A stretch of 64,000 bases of DNA from Pedobacter nutrimenti (lineage in GTDB: Bacteria > Bacteroidota > Bacteroidia > Sphingobacteriales > Sphingobacteriaceae), in the NCBI RefSeq assembly GCF_003208655.1, contig NZ_QKLU01000008.1:1-64000 (forward strand), read 5' to 3'. The position numbers were made by a program, and so were the translations under genes. The notes beneath the pieces were generated by a model. That model saw only the letters and a list, made by a program, of their open reading frames with translations. It was not told the DNA's origin and did no database searches. Each line of letters begins with the position of its first letter. Position 1 is the stretch's first letter. Shown here in pieces: positions 13,752-29,081 of this stretch.

Positions 13752-13794
13752 TGATAAAGATCACTAGACTATGCTGATAGCCCTCACTTTTTTG
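13752..13794 (+). promoter_or_regulatory. Crp/Fnr-type operator and -7 region for the hemN operon
   Basis: TGATAAAGATCA (13752-13763) is a TGAT-N4-ATCA palindrome. The TTTG of a weak -7 element lies at 13791-13794, 36.5 bases from the operator centre, the same spacing as at the norZ, RIC and 16855 promoters. This corresponds to an activator bound near -42. The operator lies just outside the repeated block ending at about 13690. Confidence 0.7.
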
Positions 13795-13833
13795 AGAACC
13801 CCCAGTCCTTATTTTTGGTATAAAATTTTAAAG

Positions 13834-14220
13834 ATGAGTGCTGTAGCTTATAGTGTCGATCCCCCCATGAAAGAACCGCTTGCGATAGCTTATCGCAAAA
13901 AGCATGAAATCACATTGATTGCAAACTCCCTTGGGCCGGGGACGGTTTGTTATGCAGAAGGTAAGAATGCAGTAATTGTGTTTTCAGAAGATGTGATAAC
14001 TGCCGATCTGCTAAACCTGCTCGCAGAGGCAGGAGTCAAGTATATAGCCTCCTGTTCTGTTAACCGGTCACATATAGATCAGCTGGCTGCGGCACAATGC
14101 AACATCAGGCTTGGAAATGTTCCTACCGCTTCACTTATCGGTTTTTTAGAAAGTGAACGTCCGATGACCATCGCATTGGAAATGATTAATAATCTCGACA
14201 AATGGCAGGCAGATAGGTGA
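13834..14220 (+). CDS. stand-alone protein resembling the N-terminal domain of D-lactate dehydrogenase
   Basis: 128 residues from the ATG at 13834. An in-frame ATG at 13771 exists but lies upstream of the predicted transcript start. The pattern KKHEITLI, then KNAVIVFSEDVITADLLNLLAEAGVKYIAS, then HIDQLAAAQCNIRLGNVP follows the first half of the substrate-binding domain of LdhA-type 2-hydroxyacid dehydrogenases. The NAD-binding Rossmann domain and catalytic Arg/Glu/His are absent. The end also resembles the short helix where the two LdhA domains join. It lies 58 bases before hemN under the shared Crp/Fnr-type promoter, so it is probably a regulatory or binding protein of anaerobic metabolism rather than an enzyme. 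Homology is by eye. Confidence 0.55.
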   Translation: MSAVAYSVDPPMKEPLAIAYRKKHEITLIANSLGPGTVCYAEGKNAVIVFSEDVITADLLNLLAEAGVKYIASCSVNRSHIDQLAAAQCNIRLGNVPTASLIGFLESERPMTIALEMINNLDKWQADR

Positions 14221-14278
14221 CTGAGGGCAGTTGCATCTGCTCAATTTGTGGTAATCAATAAAAAAATATTAGGAAAAT

Positions 14279-15634
14279 ATGGACATCAAACAACTCAACG
14301 ATAAATATCGGGTAGCCGCTCCAAGGTACACCAGTTATCCAACCGTGCCTTACTGGGATTCTTGTAATTTTACTGAACTGCGCTGGTCTAAACAGGTTTT
14401 GCAGTCAAACGACTTTGCTACTGGCATCAGCCTATATATTCATTTGCCGTTTTGTGAGAGCCTCTGCACCTATTGTGGTTGTAATACCCGGATTACTAAA
14501 AACCATTCCGTAGAAGGGCCATATATATCCGCAGTCCTCAAGGAGTGGCAGTTGTACCTTCGCCAGTTTTCCACAAAACCCTTAATAAAAGAAATACATC
14601 TTGGAGGTGGAACGCCAACCTTTTTCAGACCGGCAAATCTGGAGTTATTGATTACGGGAATTACCGAATATGCTTACATACACCCGGAAGCAGAATTCAG
14701 CATTGAAGCACATCCAAATAATACAACCACAGAACATCTGGAAGTTTTATACCGTCTGGGTTTCAGAAGATTAAGTCTGGGTATTCAGGATTTTGACCCA
14801 ACAGTACAATTTGTAATCAATAGGATACAATCTGTAAAGTCCGTAGCTGATGTTACTGCCGAAGCAAGAAGGATTGGTTATCACTCGGTCAATTACGATC
14901 TCATTTACGGTCTACCCTTGCAGAAATTAGAAGGTTTAATCAGCACTATTGACATAGTAACCGAATTGGCACCCGACCGCATCGCGTTTTATAGTTATGC
15001 ACATGTGCCATGGGTGAGACCTGGACAGCGGAGGTATACCGAAGCGCATCTTCCCTCGGCGGAATTGAAAGCTGAGTTGTATCAGACCGGACGCAAAATG
15101 CTGATCGATGCTCGCTATACAGAAATCGGAATGGATCATTTTACGGTGGCGACAGATAGCCTCTATCAGGCACACCTTTCTGGGCGGCTTCGCAGAAACT
15201 TTATGGGGTATACCGAACAGTCAAGTCGTGTATTGATAGGTCTGGGCGTGTCGGCAATCAGTGATTGCTGGACTGCCTTTGCACAGAATGTTAAGACAGT
15301 CGAAGAATATCTTAAGATAGTGAATGAGGGCCGAATTCCGGTTTTCAAAGGTCATCTCTTGAACCAATCGGATTTGGTGATCCGTCAACACATCTTAAAC
15401 ATTATGTGCAAGGGATTTACTTCGTGGATACAACCCGAAATGCAGGACAAGATTTTTTCGGAGGCGAAATTGAGGCTTCTTGAATTGGCCGATGACGGAC
15501 TGATTGTCCTGGGACAGTCTGAGCTTAAGGTCACAACAATTGGAAAGCGCTTTCTAAGAAACATCTGTATGGCGATAGATGCAAGGCTCTGGGATTTCAA
15601 GCCCGAAACCCAACTGTTTAGTATTGCAGACTAA
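14279..15634 (+). CDS. hemN: oxygen-independent coproporphyrinogen III oxidase (radical SAM)
   Basis: 451 residues, the normal HemN length. The radical SAM iron-sulfur motif CX3CX2CXC is at Cys59, Cys63, Cys66 and Cys68 (PFCESLCTYCGC). The N-terminal RYTSYPTVPYW segment and the GGGTPTF motif are typical of true HemN rather than HemW. The enzyme converts coproporphyrinogen III to protoporphyrinogen IX without oxygen and so secures heme for the NO reductase, cytochromes and globins made during oxygen limitation. Second gene of a unit controlled by the operator at 13752-13763. Confidence 0.95.
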   Translation: MDIKQLNDKYRVAAPRYTSYPTVPYWDSCNFTELRWSKQVLQSNDFATGISLYIHLPFCESLCTYCGCNTRITKNHSVEGPYISAVLKEWQLYLRQFSTKPLIKEIHLGGGTPTFFRPANLELLITGITEYAYIHPEAEFSIEAHPNNTTTEHLEVLYRLGFRRLSLGIQDFDPTVQFVINRIQSVKSVADVTAEARRIGYHSVNYDLIYGLPLQKLEGLISTIDIVTELAPDRIAFYSYAHVPWVRPGQRRYTEAHLPSAELKAELYQTGRKMLIDARYTEIGMDHFTVATDSLYQAHLSGRLRRNFMGYTEQSSRVLIGLGVSAISDCWTAFAQNVKTVEEYLKIVNEGRIPVFKGHLLNQSDLVIRQHILNIMCKGFTSWIQPEMQDKIFSEAKLRLLELADDGLIVLGQSELKVTTIGKRFLRNICMAIDARLWDFKPETQLFSIAD

Positions 15635-15719
15635 TCTACCGTCTATGTTTTATAAACTAGACAAATCATCCGCCGGTTTGAGCTATACAGAAGAATCTGG
15701 TTAGATTAAATAATATTCT

Positions 15720-16316
15720 ATGATAAATGAAAATATACTAGCGGAATTTGGATCCAAAATAGTCACATTCGACAAGGGAGAAATCATTTTCAGAAAGGGC
15801 GACATACCAAGATATTATTTCCAAATTTTAAATGGAGGCATAAAAATGAATAATTTTAACGATGAGGGACGAGAATTTGTTCAGGGGCTTTTTAGCGACG
15901 GTGACAGTTTTGGCGAGCCCCCTCTTTTTCTGGGCGATACTTATCCAGCGAATGCAGTAACCATAGTGCCTTCAAAAGTCCAGCTTTTAGCTAAGAACAA
16001 ATTCATGGAATTGTTAATGGCCAATCCCGATATTCACTTACGTGTGACATCGAATCTGGCAAGACGACTTTATTACAAGTCGATTATGGCTTCCGAGATC
16101 GCATCAGAAGAACCCGAACATCGAGTGATAAAGTTGATAGAATATTTCAAAACAAAGATTGACAAAAGTCCATCCAGTAGCAAATATAAAGTTCAAATTA
16201 CCAGACAGCAGATAGCTGACCTTACCGGGTTAAGAGTTGAAACCGTTATCCGGTCAATAAAATCACTAGAGAAAAAAGGCGAATTGGTCATCATAAACCG
16301 CAAAGTTTACAGATGA
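15720..16316 (+). CDS. Crp/Fnr-family transcriptional regulator, cysteine-free
   Basis: 198 residues: an N-terminal cyclic-nucleotide-binding-like beta-roll (about 10-115), a dimer helix, and a C-terminal winged helix with TRQQIADLTGLRVETVIRSIKSLEKKG as the HTH. The recognition helix has V-E-T-x-x-R, the Glu/Arg pair that Fnr and Crp use to read TGA. There is no cysteine at all, so it cannot carry the Fnr oxygen-sensing cluster; a heme-based NO sensor of the DNR kind is the better model. It lies 85 bases after hemN and is the best candidate for the protein that binds the TGAT-N4-ATCA operators in this window. Confidence 0.85.
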   Translation: MINENILAEFGSKIVTFDKGEIIFRKGDIPRYYFQILNGGIKMNNFNDEGREFVQGLFSDGDSFGEPPLFLGDTYPANAVTIVPSKVQLLAKNKFMELLMANPDIHLRVTSNLARRLYYKSIMASEIASEEPEHRVIKLIEYFKTKIDKSPSSSKYKVQITRQQIADLTGLRVETVIRSIKSLEKKGELVIINRKVYR

Positions 16317-16450
16317 ATTAAATTCGTTTTATATGGTCCTTGCCCGAAGCGACTCTCACGTCAGCATTTATTCGACACTACTCATGTCCTTATCTTGACG
16401 TGTACATCAATTTGAATGCCATATCGATAAGGGATATACATGCCGCACGT

Positions 16451-16855
16451 TTAGCTGTCTGGTTTGGATTCACCGGCTGACCTGGGTACAAGTGCAAAAA
16501 CCGCCTTTTTTTCAATTTGGATGCTATGTGTCAACGCTTGAATTTTGGATTTTAGCTCGATATGGTTCTCCAGCAAAGTCAACTCGATTTTTTTCTCTGA
16601 AGCCACGGTGATTACACCTATAGCATGGACAAGGTTTTGCATATTATCTTTTAATTCCTGGCACTGACGAGTTAAATTCAACAGTTTTTCCACGAAGATA
16701 TTCTTGTTTAAAGGAGCGGAGGTTTTTTGAATAAGCTTTCCTAAGAAAATGAGTTCTGTTGAAAGAAATTCCAATTCTGCTGACCATTGTTTGCCTGTCA
16801 GGTAGAGTTCTTGCAACTCGGCATCCAATTCATTGTCTTCTATCGTTGTTGTCAT
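16451..16855 (-). CDS. hypothetical helical protein under the Crp/Fnr-type promoter
   Basis: 134 residues from the ATG at 16855 (MTTTIEDNEL); a longer frame to 16912 would start inside the operator and is unlikely. It is soluble and predicted almost all-helical, with a heptad-like Leu/Ile pattern over residues 28-118, and has one Cys and three His but no HHE, globin or iron-sulfur motif. I do not recognise the family. It is convergent with the Crp/Fnr gene and has its own promoter with an operator at 16904-16915, so it probably belongs to the nitrogen-oxide or low-oxygen regulon. Confidence 0.6.
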   Translation of the reverse strand: MTTTIEDNELDAELQELYLTGKQWSAELEFLSTELIFLGKLIQKTSAPLNKNIFVEKLLNLTRQCQELKDNMQNLVHAIGVITVASEKKIELTLLENHIELKSKIQALTHSIQIEKKAVFALVPRSAGESKPDS

Positions 16856-16872
16856 GGTGATGAAATTATAAT

Positions 16873-16937
16873 CAAATATTGCAATGTGTTTGTTTAGTTT
16901 GACTGATCTCAATCAGGCTGAAATGTGATCGTCATCA
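16873..16937 (-). promoter_or_regulatory. two Crp/Fnr-type operators and a leftward -7 element
   Basis: TGATCTCAATCA (16904-16915) and TGATCGTCATCA (16926-16937) are both TGAT-N4-ATCA, with centres 22 bases apart. On the minus strand AATATTTG (16880-16873) matches the -7 consensus at all defined positions but one, and its G lies 36.5 bases from the first operator. The second operator may help drive the rightward copper genes or strengthen binding. Confidence 0.7.
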
Positions 16938-17053
16938 TTATGCTATTTGGTCACTAAAAATCTACAGATATAGGGTGGAACTTTTAGTTGACGATGTTAG
17001 GAGATCACAGATCCTGCGAGGACGCAAAAGTGATCAGCGTCAGCTTTTCAAAC

Positions 17054-17066
17054 AATGATAATCATT
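17054..17066. promoter_or_regulatory. Fur-like box before the copper genes
   Basis: AATGATAATCATT is a 13-base palindrome matching the core of the classic Fur box. It lies 57 bases before the ATG at 17124. A Fur-family metalloregulator is suggested, but which metal it senses cannot be told from the site. Confidence 0.45.
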
Positions 17067-17123
17067 AATGGACAAGCCTTGAGTCATTACTTTTACCTCT
17101 TGAATAATAAGCATGATCGCAGG

Positions 17124-17498
17124 ATGAAGCAATTAATAAGTATTGTCTTAGTTTTACTCTTAGGTGTACAGTGCCTAATCCAGTTAGGAATTATAACAGG
17201 CTATCAACTGCATAAGGAATATATCGTTAAATCATCTTGCGAAAATAGAAACAAACCTGAAATGCACTGTGATGGAAAATGTTTCTTGAAGAAAAGATTG
17301 GCTGACGCTGAAAAAAACAAAAGGCAAGCCTCAGGGATAGAAAAACAGCTGGAAATGCCGTCGTTCCTTGTCGTTGTTGACCAGCACACCTCTTTAAGAT
17401 CGTTTACGATTATAGACAGCATCAAGCCGCTCATTGCAAATTATACAAATATCATCTATTTCAATATATTTCATCCTCCTTCAGCTGTCTTTGCTTGA
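17124..17498 (+). CDS. small membrane-anchored protein with a Cys/Met metal-binding motif
   Basis: 124 residues from the ATG at 17124 (MKQLISIVLV); an upstream in-frame ATG at 17055 would overlap the Fur-like box. One N-terminal hydrophobic helix (5-25) acts as signal or anchor. It is followed by CENRNKPEMHCDGKC (Cys39, Met47, Cys49, Cys53), a set of thiol and thioether ligands suited to Cu(I). The remainder is short and ends in a hydrophobic segment. It precedes a Met/His-rich lipoprotein and an OprC-like receptor on the same strand, so a copper-handling role in the envelope is likely. Such small proteins accompany copper receptors in related genomes, but no family name can be given. Confidence 0.6.
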   Translation: MKQLISIVLVLLLGVQCLIQLGIITGYQLHKEYIVKSSCENRNKPEMHCDGKCFLKKRLADAEKNKRQASGIEKQLEMPSFLVVVDQHTSLRSFTIIDSIKPLIANYTNIIYFNIFHPPSAVFA

Positions 17499-17610
17499 AT
17501 GATCTTGCCAGCTAATATTGTTGGTGTATCCATCGCTGTCACCAATTCTTAACAATTTGCCTTTTCGCGTAGCGAACTGGCTGTTTTATGCTTCTTAATA
17601 TTAAATCGTC

Positions 17611-18423
17611 ATGAAAAAACTATATGCTTTTGCCTTTTTATTAGTCATTTTTGCCGCCTGTAAAAAAGATGGCAATGCTGTTCCTGATCCTAAAGAGGGT
17701 CTCCAAAAAATCTCTGAAGCCTATGCTCCCGGGATATCAACCAAAGTAGAATTATGGGCGAAAAATGGTCTTTCCACAGGATATAATCAGTTATTTGTGA
17801 TACTTTATGATTCTGTTTCCAACCAGGCTGTAACTAAAGCTGTCATTAAAATTCTGCCTGTAATGAATATGGAAATGAATGGGATGCACATGTCCCATTC
17901 GACACCTTGTGTGCAGCCAGAAAGTGATCTGGCTGAAAATACCTTGTTTCCTTTTGCAGCAGTTTTTACAATGGCGGGCAACACAGAACAAAATAAATGG
18001 TCGTTTGAAATAAGCATTAAACGAGACGGACAAACCAAGACAGGAATAGCCAGATTAGGAATAAAGGTCGGGCCTTCTTCGCCTGAGCGGGTAAAAATGC
18101 TGACAACTGCTGAAGGTGATAAACTGGTAGTCGCTTACTTTTTTCCCATCTCTCCAAAAATCGGAATAAATGAGCTCGAAATCATCGTTTATCGTCAGCA
18201 GAATCTAATGAGTTTTGTTCCAGCTGAGGATTATCTTCTTGCCAGCACACCCGAAATGCCAGCCATGGGGCACGGTTCTCCCAATAATGTTGATCCTGCT
18301 TATGCAAAAAATGGTGGCTACAGAGGCAAGGTCAATTTTACGATGACTGGTGACTGGAGAATCAATTTGGAACTGACCAGGTCAGGGCAGAAAATTACTA
18401 CTTTTTTTGACCTTAGCTTTTAA
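17611..18423 (+). CDS. Met/His-rich lipoprotein with FixH/YtkA-like domains, likely copper handling
   Basis: 270 residues. Lipobox FAAC puts the lipidated Cys at residue 17. Two beta-sandwich-like halves follow. The first contains the Met/His cluster MNMEMNGMHMSH at about 85-96, and the second contains PEMPAMGHGSPN and a C-terminal GKVNFTMTGDWRINLEL, the pattern of YtkA/FixH-like domains. Such clusters bind copper in the periplasm. It directly precedes the OprC-like receptor (stop at 18423, next ATG at 18428), so the lipoprotein may pass or accept copper for the receptor. Copper demand is explained by NosZ and azurin encoded downstream. Confidence 0.7.
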   Translation: MKKLYAFAFLLVIFAACKKDGNAVPDPKEGLQKISEAYAPGISTKVELWAKNGLSTGYNQLFVILYDSVSNQAVTKAVIKILPVMNMEMNGMHMSHSTPCVQPESDLAENTLFPFAAVFTMAGNTEQNKWSFEISIKRDGQTKTGIARLGIKVGPSSPERVKMLTTAEGDKLVVAYFFPISPKIGINELEIIVYRQQNLMSFVPAEDYLLASTPEMPAMGHGSPNNVDPAYAKNGGYRGKVNFTMTGDWRINLELTRSGQKITTFFDLSF

Positions 18424-18427
18424 GGAG

Positions 18428-20449
18428 ATGTGGCATTTTTTTTCTTTTACTACTGCGATTGTTATGTTCCTTTCAACATCGGCAGCAATGGCGCAGGCCC
18501 GGCAGGATAGTGTGATCAGGGAACTGTCATTGAAAGAAGTGCAGATCCATACGATTAAGAAAAGTAAACAACCCAGAACTGCATTTTATCAGTCTTCAAT
18601 GCTTGCCAGCACGGAGGATATTCTGGCCAGAATAGAGGGGGTGAATTTGATCAGGCGTGGTCCAGTTGGGATGGAGCCGGTTTTAAGAGGCTTTTCTGCA
18701 GGGCAAATTAATGTTGTCATTGATGGAATGAGAATTTTCGGTGCCTGTACGGATAAGATGGATCCGGTAACAATTTACACGGAACCTGTAAATCTGAAGA
18801 GCATCGATATCAGATATGGGGGAGATGGCAGCGGAATGGGTGCGACCATCGGCGGAACGCTCAACTTGAAACTGGCGGATGCGTTAATCGATTCTAATGC
18901 CAGATTTACCGGAAGCCTTGCTTCAGGGTATTACTCAGCTGCCACTGCCGTACAAAATGTGCTGGCTATGAATTATAGCGAAAAAAGATGGGCCATTCGT
19001 TTTAGCGGTGTGTACCGCAAAGGAGGCGACTACCTGGACGGAGAAAATAAAAGGGTGAATTTCTCTCAGTACGGTAAATTAAACACCAGTGTCTCAGGGA
19101 AGTACTCCCTCAACAAAAATAGCGTCATAAAAGCAGACCTTTTGTTTGATGACGGCTGGAACATAGGATTCCCGGCTTTGCCCATGGATGTAGGTTATGC
19201 GAAAGCCCGAATTGGCTCTGTCACTTATGAGCGGAATGATCCCGTAGCATTTTTGCAGGCGCTGGAAGCTAAAATCTATGCAAATTCCGTCCGTCATGCA
19301 ATGGACGATACACATAGACCGGCCGGCACCATTCATATGGATATGCCGGGACAAAGCCATACCGCAGGGGCTTTTCTTCAGTTTCGGCTGAGAAGCAGCG
19401 GGAAGCATACCATAAGGGCAAAAACGGACTTTTATTACAATTCCGTCCGGGCAGAGATGACAATGTATCCTCCGGACGCCGCAGCCATGTTTATGCTTAC
19501 CTGGCCAAACAATCACCAGATGGTTGCCGGGATCTTTGTGGAGGATGAGATGTATGTGTCGGATAAAAGCCGCCTTGGTCTGAAACTTAGAGTGGAGGTT
19601 GCTCAGGCAAAAGTTACAGACGACGTGGGTGCACAACAGTTTTCAATAATGGGTTATGATGTGCAGCGGCCGGTTAACCGGATCTTGAAAAATGCGAACA
19701 TCAGTTACACCCGGTTTTTGAGTTCAGTGCTCACGGTATATCTGAGCACCGGGTTTAACGAAAGATCACCCACTACTTCTGAAAGGTATGGATTTTACCT
19801 GTTCAACCAGCTGGATAATCATGATTATATGGGAAACCCTTTGCTGAAAAATGAGCAGGCCTGGAATGCGGAGTGTAATTTACTATATGCTACAAAAAAT
19901 CTCTCCTGGAAATTAAGCGTCTTTGGCAGCCGTGTGGGAAATTATATTGTAGGAAGAACCCAATCTGGTTTAAGCGTGATGACTGCCGGAGCTTCCGGCG
20001 TGCGTGCCTATCAGAATATCCCTTCGGCTACACTTTTTGGCGCAGAAAGCAGTGTTAATTACCAGATACTGAATAAACACCTGATCATTAATAATACCTG
20101 GAAATGGTTGCAGGCAAAGGATAATGAAGACACTCCGCTTCCGCTAATTTCTCCCTTAAAAATCATGACCAGTATTCGCTTTCAGCACCGGACTTTGTTC
20201 TTCCAGGCTGAAAGTGAAATCAGTACTAAACAAGATCAGATCAATAGCGATTTTGGTGAAACCTTCAGTCCCGGATACATGTTGCTGCACATCAGATCCG
20301 GGTACGGATTTATCTTGAAAAAAAACAGACTGGATTTTTCCGCAGGAATCGAAAATCTATTTAATAAAGCCTATGCTGATCATCTGGACTGGGGAGCAAC
20401 CCTCAGACCCGGGCGAAACATTTATGGCTTAATAACTTTAAAATTCTAA
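18428..20449 (+). CDS. TonB-dependent copper receptor, OprC/NosA-like
   Basis: 673 residues from the ATG at 18428; a TTG at 18407 in frame is less likely because the sequence from 18428 gives a clean signal peptide ending AAMAQ. The plug domain is at about 40-155 and the remainder is beta-barrel ending in a C-terminal Phe. In the plug, FGACTDKMDP gives Cys107-x3-Met111, the CxxxM copper ligand pair of Pseudomonas OprC. An HxM pair (His290, Met292) and a second His/Met cluster (303-311) lie in the barrel. OprC/NosA imports copper and is linked to N2O reductase maturation. No carboxypeptidase-like N-terminal extension is present, unlike SusC proteins. Confidence 0.85.
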   Translation: MWHFFSFTTAIVMFLSTSAAMAQARQDSVIRELSLKEVQIHTIKKSKQPRTAFYQSSMLASTEDILARIEGVNLIRRGPVGMEPVLRGFSAGQINVVIDGMRIFGACTDKMDPVTIYTEPVNLKSIDIRYGGDGSGMGATIGGTLNLKLADALIDSNARFTGSLASGYYSAATAVQNVLAMNYSEKRWAIRFSGVYRKGGDYLDGENKRVNFSQYGKLNTSVSGKYSLNKNSVIKADLLFDDGWNIGFPALPMDVGYAKARIGSVTYERNDPVAFLQALEAKIYANSVRHAMDDTHRPAGTIHMDMPGQSHTAGAFLQFRLRSSGKHTIRAKTDFYYNSVRAEMTMYPPDAAAMFMLTWPNNHQMVAGIFVEDEMYVSDKSRLGLKLRVEVAQAKVTDDVGAQQFSIMGYDVQRPVNRILKNANISYTRFLSSVLTVYLSTGFNERSPTTSERYGFYLFNQLDNHDYMGNPLLKNEQAWNAECNLLYATKNLSWKLSVFGSRVGNYIVGRTQSGLSVMTAGASGVRAYQNIPSATLFGAESSVNYQILNKHLIINNTWKWLQAKDNEDTPLPLISPLKIMTSIRFQHRTLFFQAESEISTKQDQINSDFGETFSPGYMLLHIRSGYGFILKKNRLDFSAGIENLFNKAYADHLDWGATLRPGRNIYGLITLKF

Positions 20450-20466
20450 GTTCGGCGATTCTATCT

Positions 20467-20515
20467 GTTTTATGATTTCGCTCATAAAACCGAGCAGAAG
20501 ATCATTATAACTTTG
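20467..20515 (+). promoter_or_regulatory. operator palindrome and perfect -7 element for azurin-norZ
   Basis: Arms GTTTTATGA and TCATAAAAC (20467-20490) form a perfect 9-base inverted repeat around six bases, with a TGA-N6-TCA core. TAACTTTG (20508-20515) is a perfect -7 element whose G lies 36.5 bases from the palindrome centre, the same spacing as the hemN and RIC promoters. No T-run follows, so this is more likely an operator than a terminator. Confidence 0.75.
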
Positions 20516-20557
20516 ATCATAATTTATAACTATAATAAATCATTAAAAATTATCAAC

Positions 20558-21082: not shown

Positions 21083-21110
21083 GAAAAACAGAACTTAAGA
21101 CGTATTTAAA

Positions 21111-23363
21111 GTGAATAGAGAAAGAAAACTTTGGATTGGATTTGCACTGGTAATGGGTATTTCCTTTGCCATACTGGGCTATTTCGGTTACGAAATTTAT
21201 CAGCAGTCTCCCCCTGTACCAACAAAAATTATTTCTGCAGACAACAAGACTATTTTTACAGAAGCAGAGATAAAAGATGGTCAGAATATCTGGCAAAGCA
21301 TGGGCGGGCAGGAGGTAGGCACGATCTGGGGCCATGGTGCTTATGTGGCTCCAGACTGGACGGCAGACTGGCTGCACAGGGAAGCCGTTTTTATTTTAAA
21401 CAGCTATGCAAAGAAGGATTTTAACCAGGCCTTCCAGACATTAACGGAGGAGCAGAAAGCAGGACTTAAAATCAGGCTCCAACGCGATCTGAGGAAAAAT
21501 ACATTTAATGCCCAGACCAATACGATAACCGTCTCGAAAGATCGGATAGCTGCGATTACTTACCTGAGCAGCTATTATAAAGGTTTGTTCATGGACGACC
21601 CAAAATTTGATCAGTTGCGTCATGATTATGCGATTCCGAAAATGTCAATCAAGGATGTAGATAGAATGCATAAGATGAATGCCTTTTTCTTTTGGGCCAC
21701 CTGGGCCACTGTCACAGAAAGGCCGGGTTCCAAAGTTTCGTATACGCACAACTGGCCGTCTGATGAGCTGGTTGGAAATGTACCAACCTCAAATTTATTG
21801 ATCTGGTCGGGTGTCAGCATCATCCTGTTGATCTTCTGTATCGGGATATTGGTTTTTTATCACGTGAAGTCAGGTGAAGATGAACAGCTTGAAACACCGG
21901 CAACAGATCCCTTACTGAAACAGGGCATGACGCCATCTATGTTCATGATTAAAAAGTATTTCCTTGTGGTCAGTTTACTGATTGTGCTGCAGGTAGTGTT
22001 CGGGGTAGTCACTGCGCATTATGGCGTAGAAGGAAACGGATTTTATGGAATTCCCCTCGATGAGTGGCTCCCCTATGCAGTAACCAGGACCTGGCATACC
22101 CAACTGGCAATTTTTTGGATTGCGACGGCATGGCTCGCAACGGGCCTATACATTGCGCCTGCGGTATCTGGTAAAGACCCTAAATTTCAGGTATTTGGAG
22201 TGAATTTCTTATTCGTTGCCCTGTTGATTATTGTGTTGGGTTCGATGGCAGGGCAATGGTTTGGCGTAATGCAAAAACTCAACTTAATTGAAAACTTCTG
22301 GTTTGGTCATCAGGGTTATGAGTATGTTGATCTGGGCCGGTTCTGGCAAATATTTTTGCTGGTCGGTCTGTTTTTATGGCTGACATTGATGGTAAGGCCC
22401 TTGCTTCCTGTACTCAGAAAGAAAACAGCTGAAAAAAACCTGATCATCATGTTTTTAATTTCCTGCACGGCAATAGCTTTATTTTATGCTGCCGGGTTAA
22501 TGTGGGGAAGACAAACCAATCTGGCTATTGCCGAATACTGGCGGTGGTGGGTGGTTCACCTTTGGGTGGAAGGGTTTTTCGAGGTATTTGCTACGGTCGT
22601 TATTGCTTTTCTTTTTGTCCGACTGGGGCTGCTTAAGACTAAAACGGCAACGCTGAATGTAATTTTTTCGACCATTATCTTTATGTCGGGTGGTATATTG
22701 GGTACCTGCCATCATTTATACTTTTCGGGGACCCCAGTTGGCGTAATGGCTTTTGGCGCTACCTTTAGTGCACTGGAGATCGTCCCCTTGGTACTCATTG
22801 GTTATGAGGCCTATCACAATTACCGGCTTTCCAAATCCACCTTGTGGATCAGGGATTACAAATGGCCAATTTATTTTATGATTGCAGTTGCTTTCTGGAA
22901 TTTTCTAGGTGCAGGTGTATTTGGGTTTATCATTAACCCGCCAATCGCCTTGTATTATGTTCAGGGATTGAACACCACACCATTGCATGGACACACGGCC
23001 TTGTTTGGGGTTTACGGAATGCTTGGGATCGGATTGATGCTTTTTGTTTTAAGAAGCCTTTTCAGACATGAAGTATGGAATGAGAACTTGATGAAGTTTA
23101 TCTTTTGGTCTACCAATATCGGACTTTTGTCTATGGCGTTGTTAAGCCTTTTGCCGGTAGGTATCTGGCAAGCCATAGCCAGCATAGAACATGGAATGTG
23201 GTATGCCCGTTCCAGCGAACTTATGCAGCAGCCAGGAATGGTGATGCTAAAGTGGCTCAGAGCAATTGGTGATACGATATTTGGGTTTGGAATTTTGGCC
23301 CTCTGCTACTTTGTTATTGAAATTTCATTTAGAAAGAAAAACAGAGCGGTCATACAGAAATAA
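21111..23363 (+). CDS. norZ: quinol-dependent nitric oxide reductase (qNOR)
   Basis: 750 residues from a GTG start; the N-terminus from here (RERKLWIGFALVMG) is the expected first helix and periplasmic lead of qNOR. A cytochrome-c-like but heme-free periplasmic domain (about 35-220) precedes the catalytic bundle. FeB ligands and catalytic Glu are intact: HLWVEGFFE gives His483 and Glu487, and GTCHHLYF gives His534 and His535. The low-spin heme/quinol helix RTWHTQLAIFW has His329. Because Glu487 and both His are kept, this is a reductase (2 NO to N2O) and not an NO dismutase. Operon with azurin and four further genes, all behind the operator at 20467-20490. Confidence 0.95.
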   Translation: MNRERKLWIGFALVMGISFAILGYFGYEIYQQSPPVPTKIISADNKTIFTEAEIKDGQNIWQSMGGQEVGTIWGHGAYVAPDWTADWLHREAVFILNSYAKKDFNQAFQTLTEEQKAGLKIRLQRDLRKNTFNAQTNTITVSKDRIAAITYLSSYYKGLFMDDPKFDQLRHDYAIPKMSIKDVDRMHKMNAFFFWATWATVTERPGSKVSYTHNWPSDELVGNVPTSNLLIWSGVSIILLIFCIGILVFYHVKSGEDEQLETPATDPLLKQGMTPSMFMIKKYFLVVSLLIVLQVVFGVVTAHYGVEGNGFYGIPLDEWLPYAVTRTWHTQLAIFWIATAWLATGLYIAPAVSGKDPKFQVFGVNFLFVALLIIVLGSMAGQWFGVMQKLNLIENFWFGHQGYEYVDLGRFWQIFLLVGLFLWLTLMVRPLLPVLRKKTAEKNLIIMFLISCTAIALFYAAGLMWGRQTNLAIAEYWRWWVVHLWVEGFFEVFATVVIAFLFVRLGLLKTKTATLNVIFSTIIFMSGGILGTCHHLYFSGTPVGVMAFGATFSALEIVPLVLIGYEAYHNYRLSKSTLWIRDYKWPIYFMIAVAFWNFLGAGVFGFIINPPIALYYVQGLNTTPLHGHTALFGVYGMLGIGLMLFVLRSLFRHEVWNENLMKFIFWSTNIGLLSMALLSLLPVGIWQAIASIEHGMWYARSSELMQQPGMVMLKWLRAIGDTIFGFGILALCYFVIEISFRKKNRAVIQK

Positions 23364-23400
23364 AATGGCCGTCCATCTTACATAATTTTAATCAAATGCC

Positions 23401-24129
23401 ATGATAACAGATTATAAAATTACAATTGGTAACATGATCGTGAAGGACTTTAGGACTGCACCGCTGTTTTGGGCATGTCAAATAGATCTGGCTACAGAAC
23501 AGAATAAAACAATTGAGAAAGTTTGTAAGGAAAAAGATATTAATCTGACGCATTTAATGAATGATCTCAATGATATTGTAAACGGCACAAGAGAATCTTC
23601 AAGTGACTATACCTTATGGCCGCTTGGTTGGCTAATCGATATGATCTCCATCCGTATCCGCTTTATTGAAGAGAACCTGTCGGTTATTCTGCAGTTTCTG
23701 GACGGGCTCTCGGAATACCACAAAAAGCAGGATCAGTGCATTTCAGATTTTTGCTCAAATTTTAATTTTTATGCTGGACGATTGGTAGGTTCGCTGCAAA
23801 GGCGGATTCTGTCTTTGGTATCTTTCATTAAACAAATCTCCGGAACGCAGGGTGAGGAGGACTGTTTTGACAATTCTACTATTATCGCTGTTAATAACAC
23901 CGTCAAGAAAATGATTGATGAGTTCTCTCTTCATAAAAGGGGTTTTTTCTCAGTCATTGACAGCATTAAAAAATATGTTCCTCCAATAGATGCATACAAT
24001 TGCTTTAAAACTACTGTGGATTTATTGACAGAATTTGAAAATGATTTAAATAAAATAGTGAGTTTGCAAGATATAGTTTATACAAGATTTACGGCCCTTA
24101 AAAATGAACTGATAGCAGAACATCTTTGA
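23401..24129 (+). CDS. degenerate RIC/ScdA-like protein lacking metal ligands
   Basis: 242 residues that follow the two-domain plan of the RIC repair proteins. An N-terminal DUF542-like part (ITIGNMIVKDFRTAPLFWACQIDL, residues 7-30) has lost the Cys-Cys of the family. A helical part (69-240) aligns with the hemerythrin domain of the intact RIC at 26675-27637, but its iron ligands are replaced: NTHHQY reads SIRIRF and LMLHLSKEE reads RLVGSLQRR. With no di-iron site it cannot repair clusters as RIC does. The frame is intact and embedded in the nor operon, which argues for a retained structural, regulatory or partner role. Confidence 0.7.
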   Translation: MITDYKITIGNMIVKDFRTAPLFWACQIDLATEQNKTIEKVCKEKDINLTHLMNDLNDIVNGTRESSSDYTLWPLGWLIDMISIRIRFIEENLSVILQFLDGLSEYHKKQDQCISDFCSNFNFYAGRLVGSLQRRILSLVSFIKQISGTQGEEDCFDNSTIIAVNNTVKKMIDEFSLHKRGFFSVIDSIKKYVPPIDAYNCFKTTVDLLTEFENDLNKIVSLQDIVYTRFTALKNELIAEHL

Positions 24130-24179
24130 AATAAAAATAATGATTGATTCATCATAAAGGAACAACAATAAATTAACAG

Positions 24180-24995
24180 ATGAAAATTAATTCAAATACA
24201 CGGATAAAGGTACTGTTAGACGCCGACCAGGAAAAGGTAATTGACGCTCTGGTAGACTTAAATACCAATTTTTCAAAGCTGAGGAATCCGCTATTGCGTA
24301 ATTTATTGGCCCGCCGGGTGACTATTGCGGATGCATGTAAAGTGGGTAAATGTACTGTTGAGGATTTCCTGAAAAGTATGAAACAAATTGGTTTTGTCAT
24401 CGATGAGACTATTGAGAAAACGAACGCAACAGAAGAAAATCTCATCGACTTTAGCCGTCCGGCAACTTTACTTGAACTGGATGCCCGCAGCTTTCTGCAA
24501 CAAAACAAGGATCCGCTCAAGGATATTCTTCAAATGACTACTCAGATGCGCATTGGAGATCGATTGAAGATTATCAATTCTTTTGAGCCCGTGCCATTGA
24601 TACATTTACTGGCCGATAGGGGATTCCTTCATCATACCGAGCACATTGAAGACAAATTGGTAGTAACCTGGTTTGAAAAAACAACTGCCGCCAGCGTATT
24701 GGTAGAGTTGCCACCTGAATACCAACAAGACAATGAGCAGGTGTTGTTTGAGAAGATATTTCAAGGGGTCGCGAAAAATAAAATTAAATATATTGACGTT
24801 CGTCATCTGGAGATGCCTCAGCCGATGATGCAAATTATAGAAAATATCCAGGACTTAAAGGACGATGAATTGTTATATGTTTATCATAAAAAATCGCCAG
24901 TGTATTTGCTTCCTGAATTGAAAAAAAGGGGTTTGATGTTCGTGCTTAATCATAAGTCCCCTACAGAGCTGGATATGTTAATTTACAGGTCATGA
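24180..24995 (+). CDS. DUF1858-DUF2249-DUF2249 protein
   Basis: 271 residues, soluble. Residues 1-78 resemble DUF1858/ScdA N-terminal domains (NPLLRNLLARRVTIADACKV and a following helix). Two DUF2249 units follow: about 98-175 (LDARSFLQQNKDPLKDI with GDRLKIINSFEPVPLIHLLADRGF) and about 200-270 (IDVRHLEMPQPMMQIIENI with DDELLYVYHKKSPVYLLPELKKRG). DUF2249 also forms the N-terminus of the intact RIC encoded downstream. These domains occur in NO and hemerythrin-type stress proteins, but their biochemical role is not known. The stop overlaps the start of the next gene by four bases. Confidence 0.75.
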   Translation: MKINSNTRIKVLLDADQEKVIDALVDLNTNFSKLRNPLLRNLLARRVTIADACKVGKCTVEDFLKSMKQIGFVIDETIEKTNATEENLIDFSRPATLLELDARSFLQQNKDPLKDILQMTTQMRIGDRLKIINSFEPVPLIHLLADRGFLHHTEHIEDKLVVTWFEKTTAASVLVELPPEYQQDNEQVLFEKIFQGVAKNKIKYIDVRHLEMPQPMMQIIENIQDLKDDELLYVYHKKSPVYLLPELKKRGLMFVLNHKSPTELDMLIYRS

Positions 24996-26284
24996 CCTCC
25001 ATCAGTCACCATAACCCGCTTTATAGAATTGTGGTAGCGCACTATTTACTTGCAGGCCTGTGTTTTTTGATACTGGCGGGAATGTTCCTGTTTTCAGTGG
25101 AGTCTCTATCCGGACATTATTTTCAACCGAAGATTTTAGCACTAACTCATACCGCGGCACTAGGCTGGGGAACGATGATCATATTTGGTGCGCTATACCA
25201 ACTGCTTCCAGTGATATTAGAAACCAATTTATATAGTACAATATTCCCCTGGATCAGTCTTGCTTTTTTTGTTCCGGGCATAATTCTGCTCGTTTATAGC
25301 TTTTGGATCTTCGACCCGGGCCTGTACATGCAAATTGCTAGTATCCTGGTGCTTACAGGGGTCATATTCTTTACTTTGAATGTTTTTTTTACGGTTAAGC
25401 GTAAAAAGCGGGAATCTATTTTTCAGGAGTTTATCATTACATCCGTTTTATGGCTCACGCTTACTGCATTACTTGGAACCCTGTTGGTGTTTAACTTCCA
25501 ATTTTCATTTCTGCAAAAGGACCATCTTGATTTTCTGAGATTGCATGCGCACATGGGTATTGTCGGGTGGTTTTTGATGCTCATAATTGGGGTTAGTGCT
25601 AAGCTTGTACCGATGTTCCTGGTTTCTAAATACCAGAAAGTGCAGCTCCTTTCTTTTAGTTATTACTTTATCAATGCAGCCCTTGTATCATTTCTTTTGA
25701 GCGCATATTTGCAGGGCATTGTTTTTATAACCTATGTCGTTGTATTACTGGGTGCTACCGGAGTTTCTTTTTATTTATTTTATCTTTTCAAGTGTATGAA
25801 ATCCCGCATTCGTAAAGAGGTGGATCTCCCGATGGTAAAGACTTTATTCTCTTTTTTACTGCTCGCGGCAGGTATGTTGGTTTTGCCCTTTATACTCTAT
25901 TACCATTTAGAAAACCATCGCCTTGCTGTGAACATGTCTACCCTTTATGGAATTCTGATCTTTATGGGCTGGATCAGTGCATTGATATTGGGGCAGACTT
26001 TTAAGACCTTGCCTTTTATTGTTTGGCTGAAGCATTATGAACATTTAGCAGGGAACGTTAAAACACCGGTTCCCGCCGATTTGTTAAATGGCCGCCTCTT
26101 ATATATTCAATTTGTTGCATTTTTTCTTTTCCTGGTTACGTTTATAGCGGGATTTCTGCTTGGTTCCATTGTAATGAGATTTATGGGAGCCTGCAGTCTG
26201 ATTGTCACAGCGCTAAGTTATTTATTCCATGTAATTTACCTGCTTTTGCACAAAACTAAAATTCGCAATTATGACGATATCTGA
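24992..26284 (+). CDS. orphan heme-copper-oxidase-like / NnrS-like membrane protein
   Basis: 430 residues with about twelve transmembrane helices. Conserved histidines sit at helix ends in the manner of oxidase subunit I: His53 in LTHTAALGWG and His185/His187 in LRLHAHMGIVGWF. A complete set of binuclear-centre ligands is not evident, so it is probably not a terminal oxidase by itself. Proteins of this kind (NnrS-like or subunit-I-like) are linked to NO tolerance in denitrifiers. It overlaps both neighbours (4 bases upstream, 14 bases downstream), so it is firmly part of the nor operon. A heme-binding role is inferred. Confidence 0.65.
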   Translation: MTSISHHNPLYRIVVAHYLLAGLCFLILAGMFLFSVESLSGHYFQPKILALTHTAALGWGTMIIFGALYQLLPVILETNLYSTIFPWISLAFFVPGIILLVYSFWIFDPGLYMQIASILVLTGVIFFTLNVFFTVKRKKRESIFQEFIITSVLWLTLTALLGTLLVFNFQFSFLQKDHLDFLRLHAHMGIVGWFLMLIIGVSAKLVPMFLVSKYQKVQLLSFSYYFINAALVSFLLSAYLQGIVFITYVVVLLGATGVSFYLFYLFKCMKSRIRKEVDLPMVKTLFSFLLLAAGMLVLPFILYYHLENHRLAVNMSTLYGILIFMGWISALILGQTFKTLPFIVWLKHYEHLAGNVKTPVPADLLNGRLLYIQFVAFFLFLVTFIAGFLLGSIVMRFMGACSLIVTALSYLFHVIYLLLHKTKIRNYDDI

Positions 26285-26573
26285 TATTCCTTCTGCCCTG
26301 AAAACTGTTATAGATCCGGAACTGAACCTCAATATTGTTGACCTGGGTTTAGTTTATGCCCTAAAGCTTAATGAAACCACCCGGCAGTTCCTGATAGAAA
26401 TGAGCTTATCTTCAAAATTCTGCCCAATGGGTGAGAGTATTTTATCGGCGACTAAAAATTGCATGGAGCGAACTTTTCCTGATTATATGACAGAGGTTAC
26501 CCTGGTTTGGGAACCCGAGTGGAGCTATAAATTCATATCAGAGGAAGGACTAAAAACATTGAGAGGATATTAA
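26271..26573 (+). CDS. MIP18/DUF59-family protein (SufT/PaaD-like)
   Basis: 100 residues. The opening (IPSALKTVIDPELNLNIVDLGLVYALKL) is the hallmark of the MIP18/DUF59 fold, and SSKFCPMGESI keeps the family's Cys. These proteins assist iron-sulfur cluster assembly or target maturation (SufT, PaaD). As last gene of the azurin-norZ operon, overlapping the membrane protein before it by 14 bases, it may help insert or restore clusters under NO stress. About 30 bases separate its stop from the separate RIC promoter. Confidence 0.85.
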   Translation: MTISDIPSALKTVIDPELNLNIVDLGLVYALKLNETTRQFLIEMSLSSKFCPMGESILSATKNCMERTFPDYMTEVTLVWEPEWSYKFISEEGLKTLRGY

Positions 26574-26601
26574 AAATAGGAATCACTATTGTTTTTCAAT
26601 G

Positions 26602-26644
26602 TGATTGAGATCATAAACCAGCCGGATTCTGAAGGTTAAATTTG
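26602..26644 (+). promoter_or_regulatory. Crp/Fnr-type operator with perfect -7 element for the RIC gene
   Basis: TGATTGAGATCA (26602-26613) is TGAT-N4-ATCA and TAAATTTG (26637-26644) is a perfect -7 element. Operator centre to final G is 36.5 bases, placing the operator near -42 from the predicted start at about 26650, the classic class II activator position. Confidence 0.8.
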
Positions 26645-26674
26645 TTTTCATAAAATTCTAACAAAAGAAATATT

Positions 26675-27637
26675 ATGGAAACAATGAACACATTAGATGT
26701 GACGGCTTTGGAGCCCCGGTTAAAACATCCAACGATTTTTGATATATATGACAGGCTAAATCCAGGCGAGGCTTTTGTGATTAACAACGACCACGATCCT
26801 AAGCCACTCTATTATCAGCTGCTTGCAGAGCGCGGACCGGTTTTTACCTGGCAGTATCTGGAAGAGGGCCCTGAACTGTGGAAAGTGAAGATCTCTAAAA
26901 ACGGAGGTGTCGAGGCAGACCCAACTATAGGCGAAATTGTAACTAAGGATTATCGTAAAGCGCAGGTCTTTAAACATTACGGCATTGACTTTTGCTGTGG
27001 CGGAAAGAAGACCATTAAAGAGGCTTGTGAAAAAAAGGGAATTGATACAGCTGAAGTAACAAAAGCGCTGGAGTCAATCCAGGATAATACAAATAGCTGT
27101 GAAAATGATTACACGAAATGGGACATTGGATTTTTGACCGATTATATCATCAATACACACCATCAGTATGTAAAGGAAAACACTTCTTTTATTGTGGAAC
27201 TGGCAAATAAAGTGGCAAAGGTACACGGGCAGCAGCACCCTGAGGTTGTTGAAGTAGCTAAACTGTTCAACCAGGTTGGAGAAGATCTGATGCTACACCT
27301 GAGCAAGGAGGAAAAAGTTCTTTTCCCTTTTATAAAAGAGTTGGCCACCGTTCAGCGTGAGGGAGGACAACTTCCAGAAAGCGCTTTTGGCCATGTATCC
27401 AACCCAATTCATGTCATGGAATCGGAACACGAGCAGGCTGGCGATCTGTTGCATACCATACGGGAAATTACCCATGATTTTACATTGCCTGCCAATGCCT
27501 GCAATTCGTACACGATATTGTACAAAAAGCTGGATGAATATGAAAATGATCTGCATAAGCATGTGCATCTGGAAAACAATATCTTGTTCCCAAAAGCACT
27601 GCTAGCGGAACAAGAGCTGCAGGCAGGCGTAAAATAA
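26675..27637 (+). CDS. iron-sulfur cluster repair di-iron protein RIC with N-terminal DUF2249
   Basis: 320 residues. DUF2249 at about 18-75 (HPTIFDIYDRLNPGEAFVINNDHDP), then DUF542/ScdA N-domain at about 83-140 with GIDFCCGG (Cys107, Cys108), then a hemerythrin-like di-iron domain to the end. Ligands are plain: THHQY (His162/163), LHLSKEE, HVMESEHEQ and HKHVHLENN. RIC proteins (YtfE, ScdA, NorA) restore iron-sulfur clusters damaged by NO or peroxide. It has its own activated promoter and a terminator after the stop. The fused DUF2249 is not present in E. coli YtfE. Confidence 0.93.
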   Translation: METMNTLDVTALEPRLKHPTIFDIYDRLNPGEAFVINNDHDPKPLYYQLLAERGPVFTWQYLEEGPELWKVKISKNGGVEADPTIGEIVTKDYRKAQVFKHYGIDFCCGGKKTIKEACEKKGIDTAEVTKALESIQDNTNSCENDYTKWDIGFLTDYIINTHHQYVKENTSFIVELANKVAKVHGQQHPEVVEVAKLFNQVGEDLMLHLSKEEKVLFPFIKELATVQREGGQLPESAFGHVSNPIHVMESEHEQAGDLLHTIREITHDFTLPANACNSYTILYKKLDEYENDLHKHVHLENNILFPKALLAEQELQAGVK

Positions 27638-27654
27638 TCAGCATCGTAACTTAA

Positions 27655-27688
27655 AGGACCACTGTAAGCAGATTACAGGGGTCTTTTT
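27655..27688. terminator. terminator between RIC and the convergent membrane gene
   Basis: GGACCACTGTAA and TTACAGGGGTC pair with one mismatch around five bases and are followed by TTTTT. The structure runs into the last codons of the leftward gene, so it can serve both strands. Confidence 0.75.
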
Positions 27689-28929
27689 GCGTTTATAAAG
27701 TAACCGGCTTTTATTAGTGTTATGGCGAGACCTACTGCCATCATAACTGCAGCCAGGAATAAAACGATGCCTGTATGCACTACACCATTAAACGCGATGG
27801 CGTCCAACGCTTGTACCATTAATGCGCCTTCCTGAAGTAATACCCCAGATATAAAAATACATAGCCCGGTTTTATTTAATTCCCGGCCTACTCTCGCCAG
27901 TACAATGTTACAGCAGCCAAGAATAAAGAAAGAAATTACCCCCAGGAAACACAGGTGCAGGTAGGCTACAATTACTGGCCTGAGGCTAAAGGCAAAATCA
28001 GCAAAGTAAGGGATGATGGAAAAACTTTGCAGAACGATTTTCAGCGCAAACGAAATATAGGCAAGCGTCCATAAATAAGCGGTCATTTGGTTCAGGGAAA
28101 AATCAGGTCTGGATCTAAGTGCTTCTAAAAGGCGGTAGTTATAAAAAACTACAGACAGCTGAACGATAGCTGAGCCCGCAGCGATCCAAAACAAATACGC
28201 CGGTACTTTTAATCCCAATATAGATAGTAAGTAAGAGGGGATAACGGTCAATGCAAGAATTAAGAAGAGGCCCCTGTTGATTTTTAGTAAATGCATGTCC
28301 TCCTTTTGTTGGACGAAAGAAAATAACAGCCCAAAACAGGCGAACAGGAACCAGCCGTTATACTGGAAATGAAGGAAAAAATAAATGGCTGAAAAATAAA
28401 GATCCTGGACAAAAATGCGGTTCGCCATTAAGTAAGCGAGAGTAAAGGGTCCGATTGAAGAAATGCCTAGCAGCACAAGTGCAAATTTAAACCAATTGCT
28501 GGTGTGCTGGTTTCCTTTTATCCCGCTCAAATCTTTCCAGTAGTAAAAAATAAAAAAATAGGAAACAAAAATTGATAGTGTTGAAAATGTGATTGAAGCC
28601 AGGGCATATCCCTGTGCTGTAAATGCAATCAACATACCGTAAGCAGAGATTGTATTGGCAATGAATAAGCAATGGTATTTTTTATAATTGGTTACAATGC
28701 CAGACCTGGTCAGGTAGTTCACCATGAGGGCCATTAACGCCAATGATACCCAGCCTACAAATGCGAAATGAGAATGACCATGTAATAAAAATTTCTGGTC
28801 AATCAATGGCAGCGGAAAGTTAATTTTATAACGTAAAATGATGCCAACTACGGAAACTATAAAAAAATTAATCAATGAAATTATGATCCATCTTCGGCTA
28901 TTGAACTGATTGTCTCGCATTATTACCAT
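27673..28929 (-). CDS. polytopic membrane protein with oxidase-like histidines
   Basis: 418 residues, about twelve transmembrane helices. FLLHGHSHFAFVGWVS (His50, His52, His54) and VAYLHLCFLGVISFFI resemble the heme-ligand helices of NnrS or oxidase-subunit-I-like proteins, as in 24992-26284, but the two proteins are only distantly alike. No complete binuclear centre is visible. An ATG nine bases downstream is an alternative start. It is divergent from the nos operon and shares its 180-base control region, so it may respond to the same Crp/Fnr operators. Heme or NO-related function is inferred. Confidence 0.65.
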   Translation of the reverse strand: MVIMRDNQFNSRRWIIISLINFFIVSVVGIILRYKINFPLPLIDQKFLLHGHSHFAFVGWVSLALMALMVNYLTRSGIVTNYKKYHCLFIANTISAYGMLIAFTAQGYALASITFSTLSIFVSYFFIFYYWKDLSGIKGNQHTSNWFKFALVLLGISSIGPFTLAYLMANRIFVQDLYFSAIYFFLHFQYNGWFLFACFGLLFSFVQQKEDMHLLKINRGLFLILALTVIPSYLLSILGLKVPAYLFWIAAGSAIVQLSVVFYNYRLLEALRSRPDFSLNQMTAYLWTLAYISFALKIVLQSFSIIPYFADFAFSLRPVIVAYLHLCFLGVISFFILGCCNIVLARVGRELNKTGLCIFISGVLLQEGALMVQALDAIAFNGVVHTGIVLFLAAVMMAVGLAITLIKAGYFINAKRPL

Positions 28930-29004
28930 TTAATTTTAATTTGTAATTTTAAGTGTAATTCGTATCTTGATTTGTACAATTAAGACAAAAAATGGCATAA
29001 ATTG

Positions 29005-29081
29005 TGTGACCGATCTCACATAATAACGACACATTATATGATTCTAATCATATAATGTGAGTTTCTGATTTCCTATAATTA
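29005..29081 (+). promoter_or_regulatory. two Crp/Fnr-type operators before the nos operon
   Basis: TGTGACCGATCTCACA (29005-29020) is a perfect TGTGA-N6-TCACA palindrome. A second site at 29031-29058 has perfect 13-base arms (ACATTATATGATT and its complement) around CT, with core TGATTCTAATCA. The -7-like TATAATTA ends 36.5 bases from the second centre. The first site may serve the divergent gene or act as an upstream co-site. Confidence 0.75.

Follow-up and report, generated by a model that had tools for sequence, protein, structure and literature searches.

The question raised by this locus is whether a single activator site, set at one fixed distance from the core promoter, can account for the control of a whole nitrogen-oxide module. 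The locus is a 64,000-nucleotide stretch of the Pedobacter nutrimenti genome (contig NZ_QKLU01000008.1, positions 1–64,000), here termed the window. Sequences of the type TGA-N6-TCA are present before hemN, an open reading frame of 134 amino acids, azurin-norZ, RIC and nos. An initial annotation assigned these five promoters to one activator, a cysteine-free Crp/Fnr protein, acting at a fixed spacing of 36.5 bases on the promoter element TAnnTTTG. Both the operators and the spacing of 36.5 bases are borne out, exceed chance expectation and are conserved beyond this genome. The operators are however of two classes, and the neighboring genes link each class to a Crp-family protein of its own. 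The pattern is most probably that of ordinary class II Crp/Fnr-activated promoters formed on the Bacteroidota housekeeping core element.

Spacing between operator and core box

Spacing was measured from the operator centre to the last G of TTTG; a value of 36.5 corresponds to 29.5 bases to the first base of the core element. All five operators that had been proposed are present in the sequence, with their centres as first given. TTTG ends exactly 36.5 bases from the centre at hemN, the 134-residue gene, azurin-norZ and RIC, and TATAATTA occupies this place at nos. The proposed TAnnTTTG promoter is found in full at azurin (TAACTTTG) and RIC (TAAATTTG), but not at the 134-residue gene (AATATTTG), at nos, or at the site first assigned to hemN (CTTTTTTG). 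The hemN promoter had been misplaced at the operator centred at 13757.5. The conserved promoter belongs to a second, proximal operator centred at 13780.5, which has TATTTTTG at 36.5; its conserved counterpart in the promoter of a paralogous hemN operon on another contig of the genome (C11) is TTATTTTTG. A hemN core box at 13791–13794 was rejected because the aligned stretch is not conserved in the C11 paralog.

In the window, 5 of 74 oriented TGA-N6-TCA sites have TTTG at 36.5, while the other spacings show a mean of 0.63 and a largest value of 3. Forty dinucleotide shuffles of the window gave a mean of 0.25 and at most 2 at this spacing, so the original view that such identity is unlikely by chance is borne out. 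The full TAnnTTTG element appears three times at 36.5 (azurin, RIC and the proximal hemN site) and twice over all other spacings together; the boxes of the 134-residue gene and nos are partial.

The same spacing appears outside this genome. Ten stretches from eight relatives contain TAnnTTTG ten times at 36.5 and three times at 37.5, with a mean of 0.14 over the 49 spacings other than 36.5; in shuffles of these stretches the count at 36.5 is at most 1. A search of 188 Bacteroidota genomes for TATGA-N6-TCATA, a gap of 11–31 (21 spacings) and TAnnTTTG yielded 69 matches in 42 genomes: 32 at 36.5, 13 at 37.5 and 24 over the 19 other gaps, a mean of 1.3 per gap. All 13 matches at 37.5 and 29 of the 32 at 36.5 come from the genome of the window or its class. 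The reversed control gave 19 matches among those listed. At 50 Bacteroidota loci that carry a homolog of the cysteine-free regulator (selected from 55; L438, L439, L441, L443 and L444 are from other phyla), TAnnTTTG occurs 25 times at 36.5, 18 times at 37.5 and not at all at 35.5, with a mean of 0.21 for each other spacing; 39 of the loci have at least one such composite of operator and core box. The counts from the phylum and from the regulator loci thus give a distance of 36.5 or 37.5.

A scan of the P. nutrimenti genome (5.72 Mb) for TGA-N6-TCA, a gap of 10–40 and TAnnTTTG shows 61 matches (38 in the reversed control), with 7 pairs at 36.5 and a mean of 1.8 for the other 30 gaps. Over this genome as a whole 36.5 alone is not outstanding; it is the location of the pairs that stands out. 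Three of the seven are within the nitrogen-oxide module, one is in the promoter of the second 2-Hacid_dh-like + hemN operon on C11, and one, on contig C3, starts within the last part of a Crp-like gene, ahead of an alpha/beta hydrolase. The pair at C5:152533 has a 311-residue open reading frame 122 bases downstream; for C11:181047, no downstream open reading frame of 80 residues was found within the stretch read. Pairing TGAT-N4-ATCA with TTTG gives 129 matches in the genome, and these were not used for the spacing count.

TAnnTTTG is the core element of the primary sigma factor of Bacteroidota (PMC7366714), and in Flavobacterium psychrophilum this sigma-A box is reported at −12 to −5 (PMC9723704). 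With the last G at −5 in the F. psychrophilum register, a spacing of 36.5 corresponds to an operator at −41.5, as is usual for class II promoters. In E. coli, 19 of 23 FNR-activated promoters with a known start have a site at −41.5 ± 4 (PMC3688515). The geometry had been considered specific to Bacteroidota; as E. coli FNR also acts from −41.5 at class II promoters (PMC3688515), that claim falls. The distal hemN operator would lie at about −64.5 if the proximal one is at −41.5. The transcript starts in Table 1 are predictions from this borrowed register, and would give leaders of 12, 38, 26, 23 and 13 bases before start codons at 13834, 20558, 26675, 29109 and 16855, respectively, these start codons being our own choice.

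Table 1. Operators, core boxes and genes of the module in the window (predicted starts are transcript starts; A and B are the operator classes described in the text).
Feature	Sequence	Position	Centre	Strand	Remarks
hemN distal operator	TGATAAAGATCA	13752–13763	13757.5	+	class B; 23 bp upstream of proximal operator
hemN proximal operator	TGATAGCCCTCA	13775–13786	13780.5	+	class B; absent from initial annotation
hemN core box	TATTTTTG	13810–13817		+	last G 36.5 from 13780.5; predicted start ~13822
Operon, 2-Hacid_dh-like (13834–14220) + hemN (14279–15634)		13834–15634		+	first start codon chosen by us
Crp/Fnr-family regulator, 198 aa		15720–16316		+	helix GLRVETVIR; proposed activator of class A sites
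134-residue gene core box	AATATTTG	16873–16880		−	TTTG at 36.5; predicted start ~16868
134-residue gene operator	TGATTGAGATCA	16904–16915	16909.5	−	class B by score
Further operator	TGATCGTCATCA	16926–16937	16931.5	+	between 134-residue gene and next rightward gene; absent from initial annotation
azurin-norZ operator	TGATTTCGCTCA	20473–20484	20478.5	+	class A
azurin-norZ core box	TAACTTTG	20508–20515		+	full TAnnTTTG at 36.5; predicted start ~20520
RIC operator	TGATTGAGATCA	26602–26613	26607.5	+	class A
RIC core box	TAAATTTG	26637–26644		+	full TAnnTTTG at 36.5; predicted start ~26649
nos distal operator	TGACCGATCTCA	29007–29018	29012.5	+	32 bp upstream of proximal; absent from initial annotation
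nos proximal operator	TGATTCTAATCA	29039–29050	29044.5	+	class A
nos core box	TATAATTA	29074–29081		+	at 36.5; TA kept, TTTG not; predicted start ~29086

Two operator classes and two Crp-family proteins

The protein encoded at 15720–16316 matches the Pfam families cNMP_binding (1.2e-16) and HTH_Crp_2 (1.3e-6). As had been noted initially, it has no cysteine in its 198 residues and carries V-E-T-x-x-R in the recognition helix. Over the 50 Bacteroidota loci the helix was matched 50 times, 49 times as GLRVETVIR and once as GVRVETVIR. Homologs are 49%–82% identical and come from Pedobacter, Flavobacterium, Salinimicrobium, Tenacibaculum and others. Among solved structures the protein is about equally close to DNR (PDB 3dkw, 5.7e-14) and CAP (4i0a, 4.5e-14). 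The best NCBIfam model is CRP, at 62 bits against a cut-off of 266, in a model list that lacks DNR.

The regulator gene is found in the neighborhood of nosZ and of the composite promoters. In 29 of the 51 genomes of the order that have nosZ a homolog is divergent from nosZ within 2 kb, and in 6 more, the window included, it is 2–14 kb away; the other 16 show no homolog at 1e-20 on the nosZ contig. Of 30 homolog loci in the order, 24 have a composite immediately after the regulator gene (19 at 36.5, 5 at 37.5); among the 50 named Bacteroidota loci the number is 27 (9 at 36.5, 18 at 37.5).

Several small genes accompany the regulator. An open reading frame of 93–99 residues under a composite promoter behind the regulator was seen in 13 of the 14 Flavobacteriaceae loci viewed (among L400–L437). 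In Pedobacter-type genomes (L123–L142) a regulator homolog of about 38% identity is followed by a composite promoter and an open reading frame with CPRCRKG or CPRCRQG. Three small proteins behind the regulator in relatives, including those of L414 and L139, matched no Pfam family. In 14 of the 50 loci a CoA-transferase homolog is encoded no more than 4 kb from the regulator; in the window it is behind the nos genes (35464–36747).

The operators were scored with two models: that for class A was trained on 30 distinct sites immediately after regulator genes, that for class B on 22 hemN sites. Every training site was assigned to its own class (0 of 30 and 0 of 22 errors). The held-out operators of azurin-norZ (A 18.8, B 10.8), RIC (16.2, 11.3) and proximal nos (17.7, 10.0) score as class A. 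The distal hemN operator (A −5.0, B 15.1), the proximal hemN operator (−8.3, 10.8) and the operator of the 134-residue gene (2.9, 13.9) score as class B, although class B partly means "not A", as RIC sites from nine genomes without the regulator are also B-like in nine of nine cases.

Two further operators are not A-like and their class is unclear: distal nos (A 5.3, B 11.1) and the one at 16931.5 (A 5.8, B 12.7). An earlier class A set of 34 sites was mixed with repeats and with RIC sites from genomes lacking the regulator, and 3 of its 34 sites were higher as B; with that set the operator at 16931.5 gave A 15.9 and a best B of 13.7, and distal nos was also nearer A. No core box is present at 36.5 from 16931.5 on either strand, and this operator was therefore not adopted as a class II site of the 17055/17121 gene.

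Class B sites are associated with a different protein. The second hemN operon of the genome (G000:C11:65446–67264, L198) has a tandem-operator promoter like that of the window and adjoins genes for a PAS histidine kinase, a 352-residue receiver-cNMP-HTH_Crp protein (the receiver-Crp hybrid), and DsbD_2, FixH and FixG_C proteins. Tandem operators, the proximal one exactly 36.5 from TAnnTTTG, occur in 10 of 16 hemN loci of relatives, and all ten have the hybrid gene, with helix ATETVSR, just upstream. The two operators are 22 bp apart in nine of these loci and 23 bp in one, compared with 23 bp in the window and 22 bp on C11. In the window operon itself, the 14279–15634 gene is hemN by TIGR00538 (1.8e-120) and the 13834–14220 protein matches PF00389 (2-Hacid_dh-like, 1e-6).

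The 134-residue gene (16451–16855) matched no Pfam family. Its one homolog found, in Pedobacter sp. ok626 (L390, 61% identity), has a near-identical operator upstream, CCTGATTGATATCAGC, with AAAATTTA at 36.5.

It could be argued that the cysteine-free regulator alone reads all sites, including those of hemN and the 134-residue gene, and tolerates the differing flanks. All sites share the TGA-N6-TCA core, the regulator gene is the next one after hemN in the window, and a hemN-like stretch is within 4 kb in 6 of the 50 regulator loci. This is nevertheless unlikely given the class scores of the hemN and 134-residue gene sites, the hybrid upstream of hemN in the ten tandem relatives and the hybrid adjoining the genome's own second tandem hemN operon. 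The initial proposal of one activator site finds no support in this comparison: at least two activators, not one, appear to share the spacing layout. Judged from operator class and gene position, the protein that binds at azurin-norZ, RIC and nos is still likely to be the cysteine-free one.

Conservation of the composites and points against

The orientation of the loci was checked by stops (1 of 60 RIC regions, L279, and 0 of 60 nos regions contained one). At RIC, 15 of the 30 best loci from 250 genomes of the order have an operator with a TTTG box (2 at 35.5, 10 at 36.5 and 3 at 37.5), each 19–47 bases before the RIC match. Four relatives whose stretch lacks norZ also carry the composite at the azurin promoter, three at 36.5 and one at 37.5. 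In five of six nos promoters of the genus (four of the five relatives) the place at 36.5 reads TATAATTA, TATCATTA, TACTATTA, TACTTTTA or TAATTTTG. Three of the six (those of the window, G136 and G164) have a further operator at a distance of exactly 32 bases upstream.

A palindrome in another genome (L196:12086.5, G043:C10; TATGATTTCAATCATA) is flanked on each side by a TAnnTTTG at exactly 36.5. It faces a lipoprotein/TonB pair one way and a nos gene cluster the other way.

Several observations weigh against regular class II control of these genes by the cysteine-free regulator at one spacing. The distance is not a single value, as 37.5 is common; a set distance between operator and box stands, a fixed 36.5 does not. 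A scan with the composite motif, foreseen initially as a check, peaks at 36.5 in the phylum (32 of 69), but in the genome of the window the 7 pairs at that spacing are nearly equalled by another gap with 6. Orthologous promoters do not count as independent, and with near relatives among them the 50 regulator loci are fewer than 50 separate cases. Eleven of those loci have no composite within 4 kb and 23 have none directly downstream; the regulator gene of the window, like those of G067 and G038, has no composite behind it. Among the best loci of the order, nos composites were found in only 6 of 30 (one at 36.5, five at 37.5), and norZ composites in only 2 of 19, a count that leaves out the partial rows L080, L081 and L082. 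In the phylum, TTTG at 36.5 and 37.5 occurs only 4 and 2 times among 86 RIC loci and only 13 and 3 times among 87 nos loci (taken from the matches in 136 and 129 genomes, respectively). Four loci (L384, L385, L387 and L388) have the hybrid upstream of hemN with no strict composite. Finally, 9 of the 15 genomes with a RIC composite have no regulator homolog at 1e-20, and 6 have one.

The last point bears on the possibility that another Crp-family paralog, or an unlinked regulator, also binds class A sites and that the cysteine-free protein mainly regulates its own neighbor. Candidates exist: four proteins of the genome pass the HTH_Crp_2 cut-off (the regulator and the C11 hybrid among them), and the Crp-like protein on C3 matches cNMP_binding only. 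The 16 nosZ genomes without a homolog on the nosZ contig are also in accordance with it. Against this, gene neighborhood couples the cysteine-free regulator to class A composites, and the RIC sites of the nine genomes that lack it have the higher score as class B in nine of nine, as would be the case if operators change along with their regulators. These sites score away from A, so another protein probably reads them. On balance this explanation appears quite improbable.

That the sites are repressor or autoregulatory sites, or that TTTG is a coincidence of AT-rich intergenic DNA, where TTTG alone is frequent and where 36.5 barely exceeds the next gap in the genome of the window, can be largely set aside, as a repressor site would need no single register to the core box and the counts in the window (5 against 0.25 in shuffles), the relatives (10 TAnnTTTG against at most 1) and the phylum (32 against a mean of 1.3) are above those of the comparisons.

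Proposed mechanism and known systems

For the class II reading, we infer from sequence the activation itself, the pairing of proteins with sites and the signals. A dimer on TGA-N6-TCA, with its centre some 41.5 bases ahead of the transcript start, would sit beside the polymerase and would help it to open a TAnnTTTG element that has no normal −35 box. The cysteine-free protein may act on the class A sites (mostly TATGAT) of azurin-norZ, RIC and nos. The C11 hybrid may act on class B sites (xCTGA flank): those of the hemN operon, which it would serve at least partly, and probably that of the 134-residue gene. The signal of the former would be nitric oxide (NO) or nitrogen oxides, and that of the latter low oxygen via the PAS kinase.

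The position equivalent to CRP residue 180 is V in GLRVETVIR, T in MATETVSR of the hybrid and R in VSREAVSR of the C3 protein. Arg180 has been linked with G in Crp-family operators (PMC1274295), and the C3 protein, which has an AGTGA site, fits this link. A broader proposal is tentative, with the balance somewhat against it: several Crp-family activators of one genome may share one frame and be told apart mainly by the base beside the TGA core, which would follow the CRP-180 residue (V with TATGAT, T with xCTGA, R with GTGA). Operator-N21/22-TAnnTTTG may then represent a core promoter that depends on an activator and is in general use in the class, the activator replacing the missing −35 contact.

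Activator recruitment of RNA polymerase in Bacteroidota, at promoters without a normal −35 box, seems to be little described; no report of Crp/Fnr spacing on TAnnTTTG promoters was found among titles and abstract openings of the top-ranked open-access results. The composite appears specific enough to predict transcript starts to the base, and may point to targets of NO and low-oxygen regulators, including clade II nosZ, in many genomes.

HcpR/HcpR2 of Bacteroides and Porphyromonas are likewise Crp/Fnr proteins for nitrosative stress in Bacteroidota (PMC12750200). The HcpR2 motif before hcp is given as GTAACnnnnGTTAC (PMC1274295), whereas the operators here are TGA-N6-TCA.

The DNR regulon of denitrifying pseudomonads and beta-proteobacteria is similar in having a Crp/Fnr protein over nor and nos genes, with FNR-like operators; the regulator described here also combines cNMP_binding with a Crp-type HTH and lacks the FNR cysteines. 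It differs in its helix (VETVIR) and its mostly TATGAT sites, the DNR consensus being reported as CTTGATnnnnATCAAG (PMC1274295). The DNR operator TTGATnnnnATCAA was not found as the rule: T precedes TGA in 1 of the 68 half-sites of the earlier 34-site set, where the two bases before TGA are TA 42, AA 10, TG 7, CA 4, AG 2, GT 1, CG 1 and GG 1. TTGAC sites are present in three distant loci (L215, L253 and L259).

The C11 locus resembles the FixL/FixJ-FixK system, as generally described, in that a PAS histidine kinase and a receiver protein stand beside FixG_C and FixH proteins and hemN. It differs in that receiver and Crp domains are fused and the promoter has two operators 22–23 bp apart.

The half-site flank of FNR is TTGAT; class A sites mostly show TATGAT in place of the FNR/DNR flank. 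With the class II FNR/CRP promoters of E. coli (narG, dmsA, nirB, nrfA) the sites share a TGA-N6-TCA dyad, which would be at −41.5 if the published TAnnTTTG register holds. The difference lies in the core, which here is the TAnnTTTG of Bacteroidota (PMC7366714). By this analogy the geometry would be the common class II one placed on a Bacteroidota core box, which suggests that the contact at −41.5 arose before Proteobacteria and Bacteroidota diverged.

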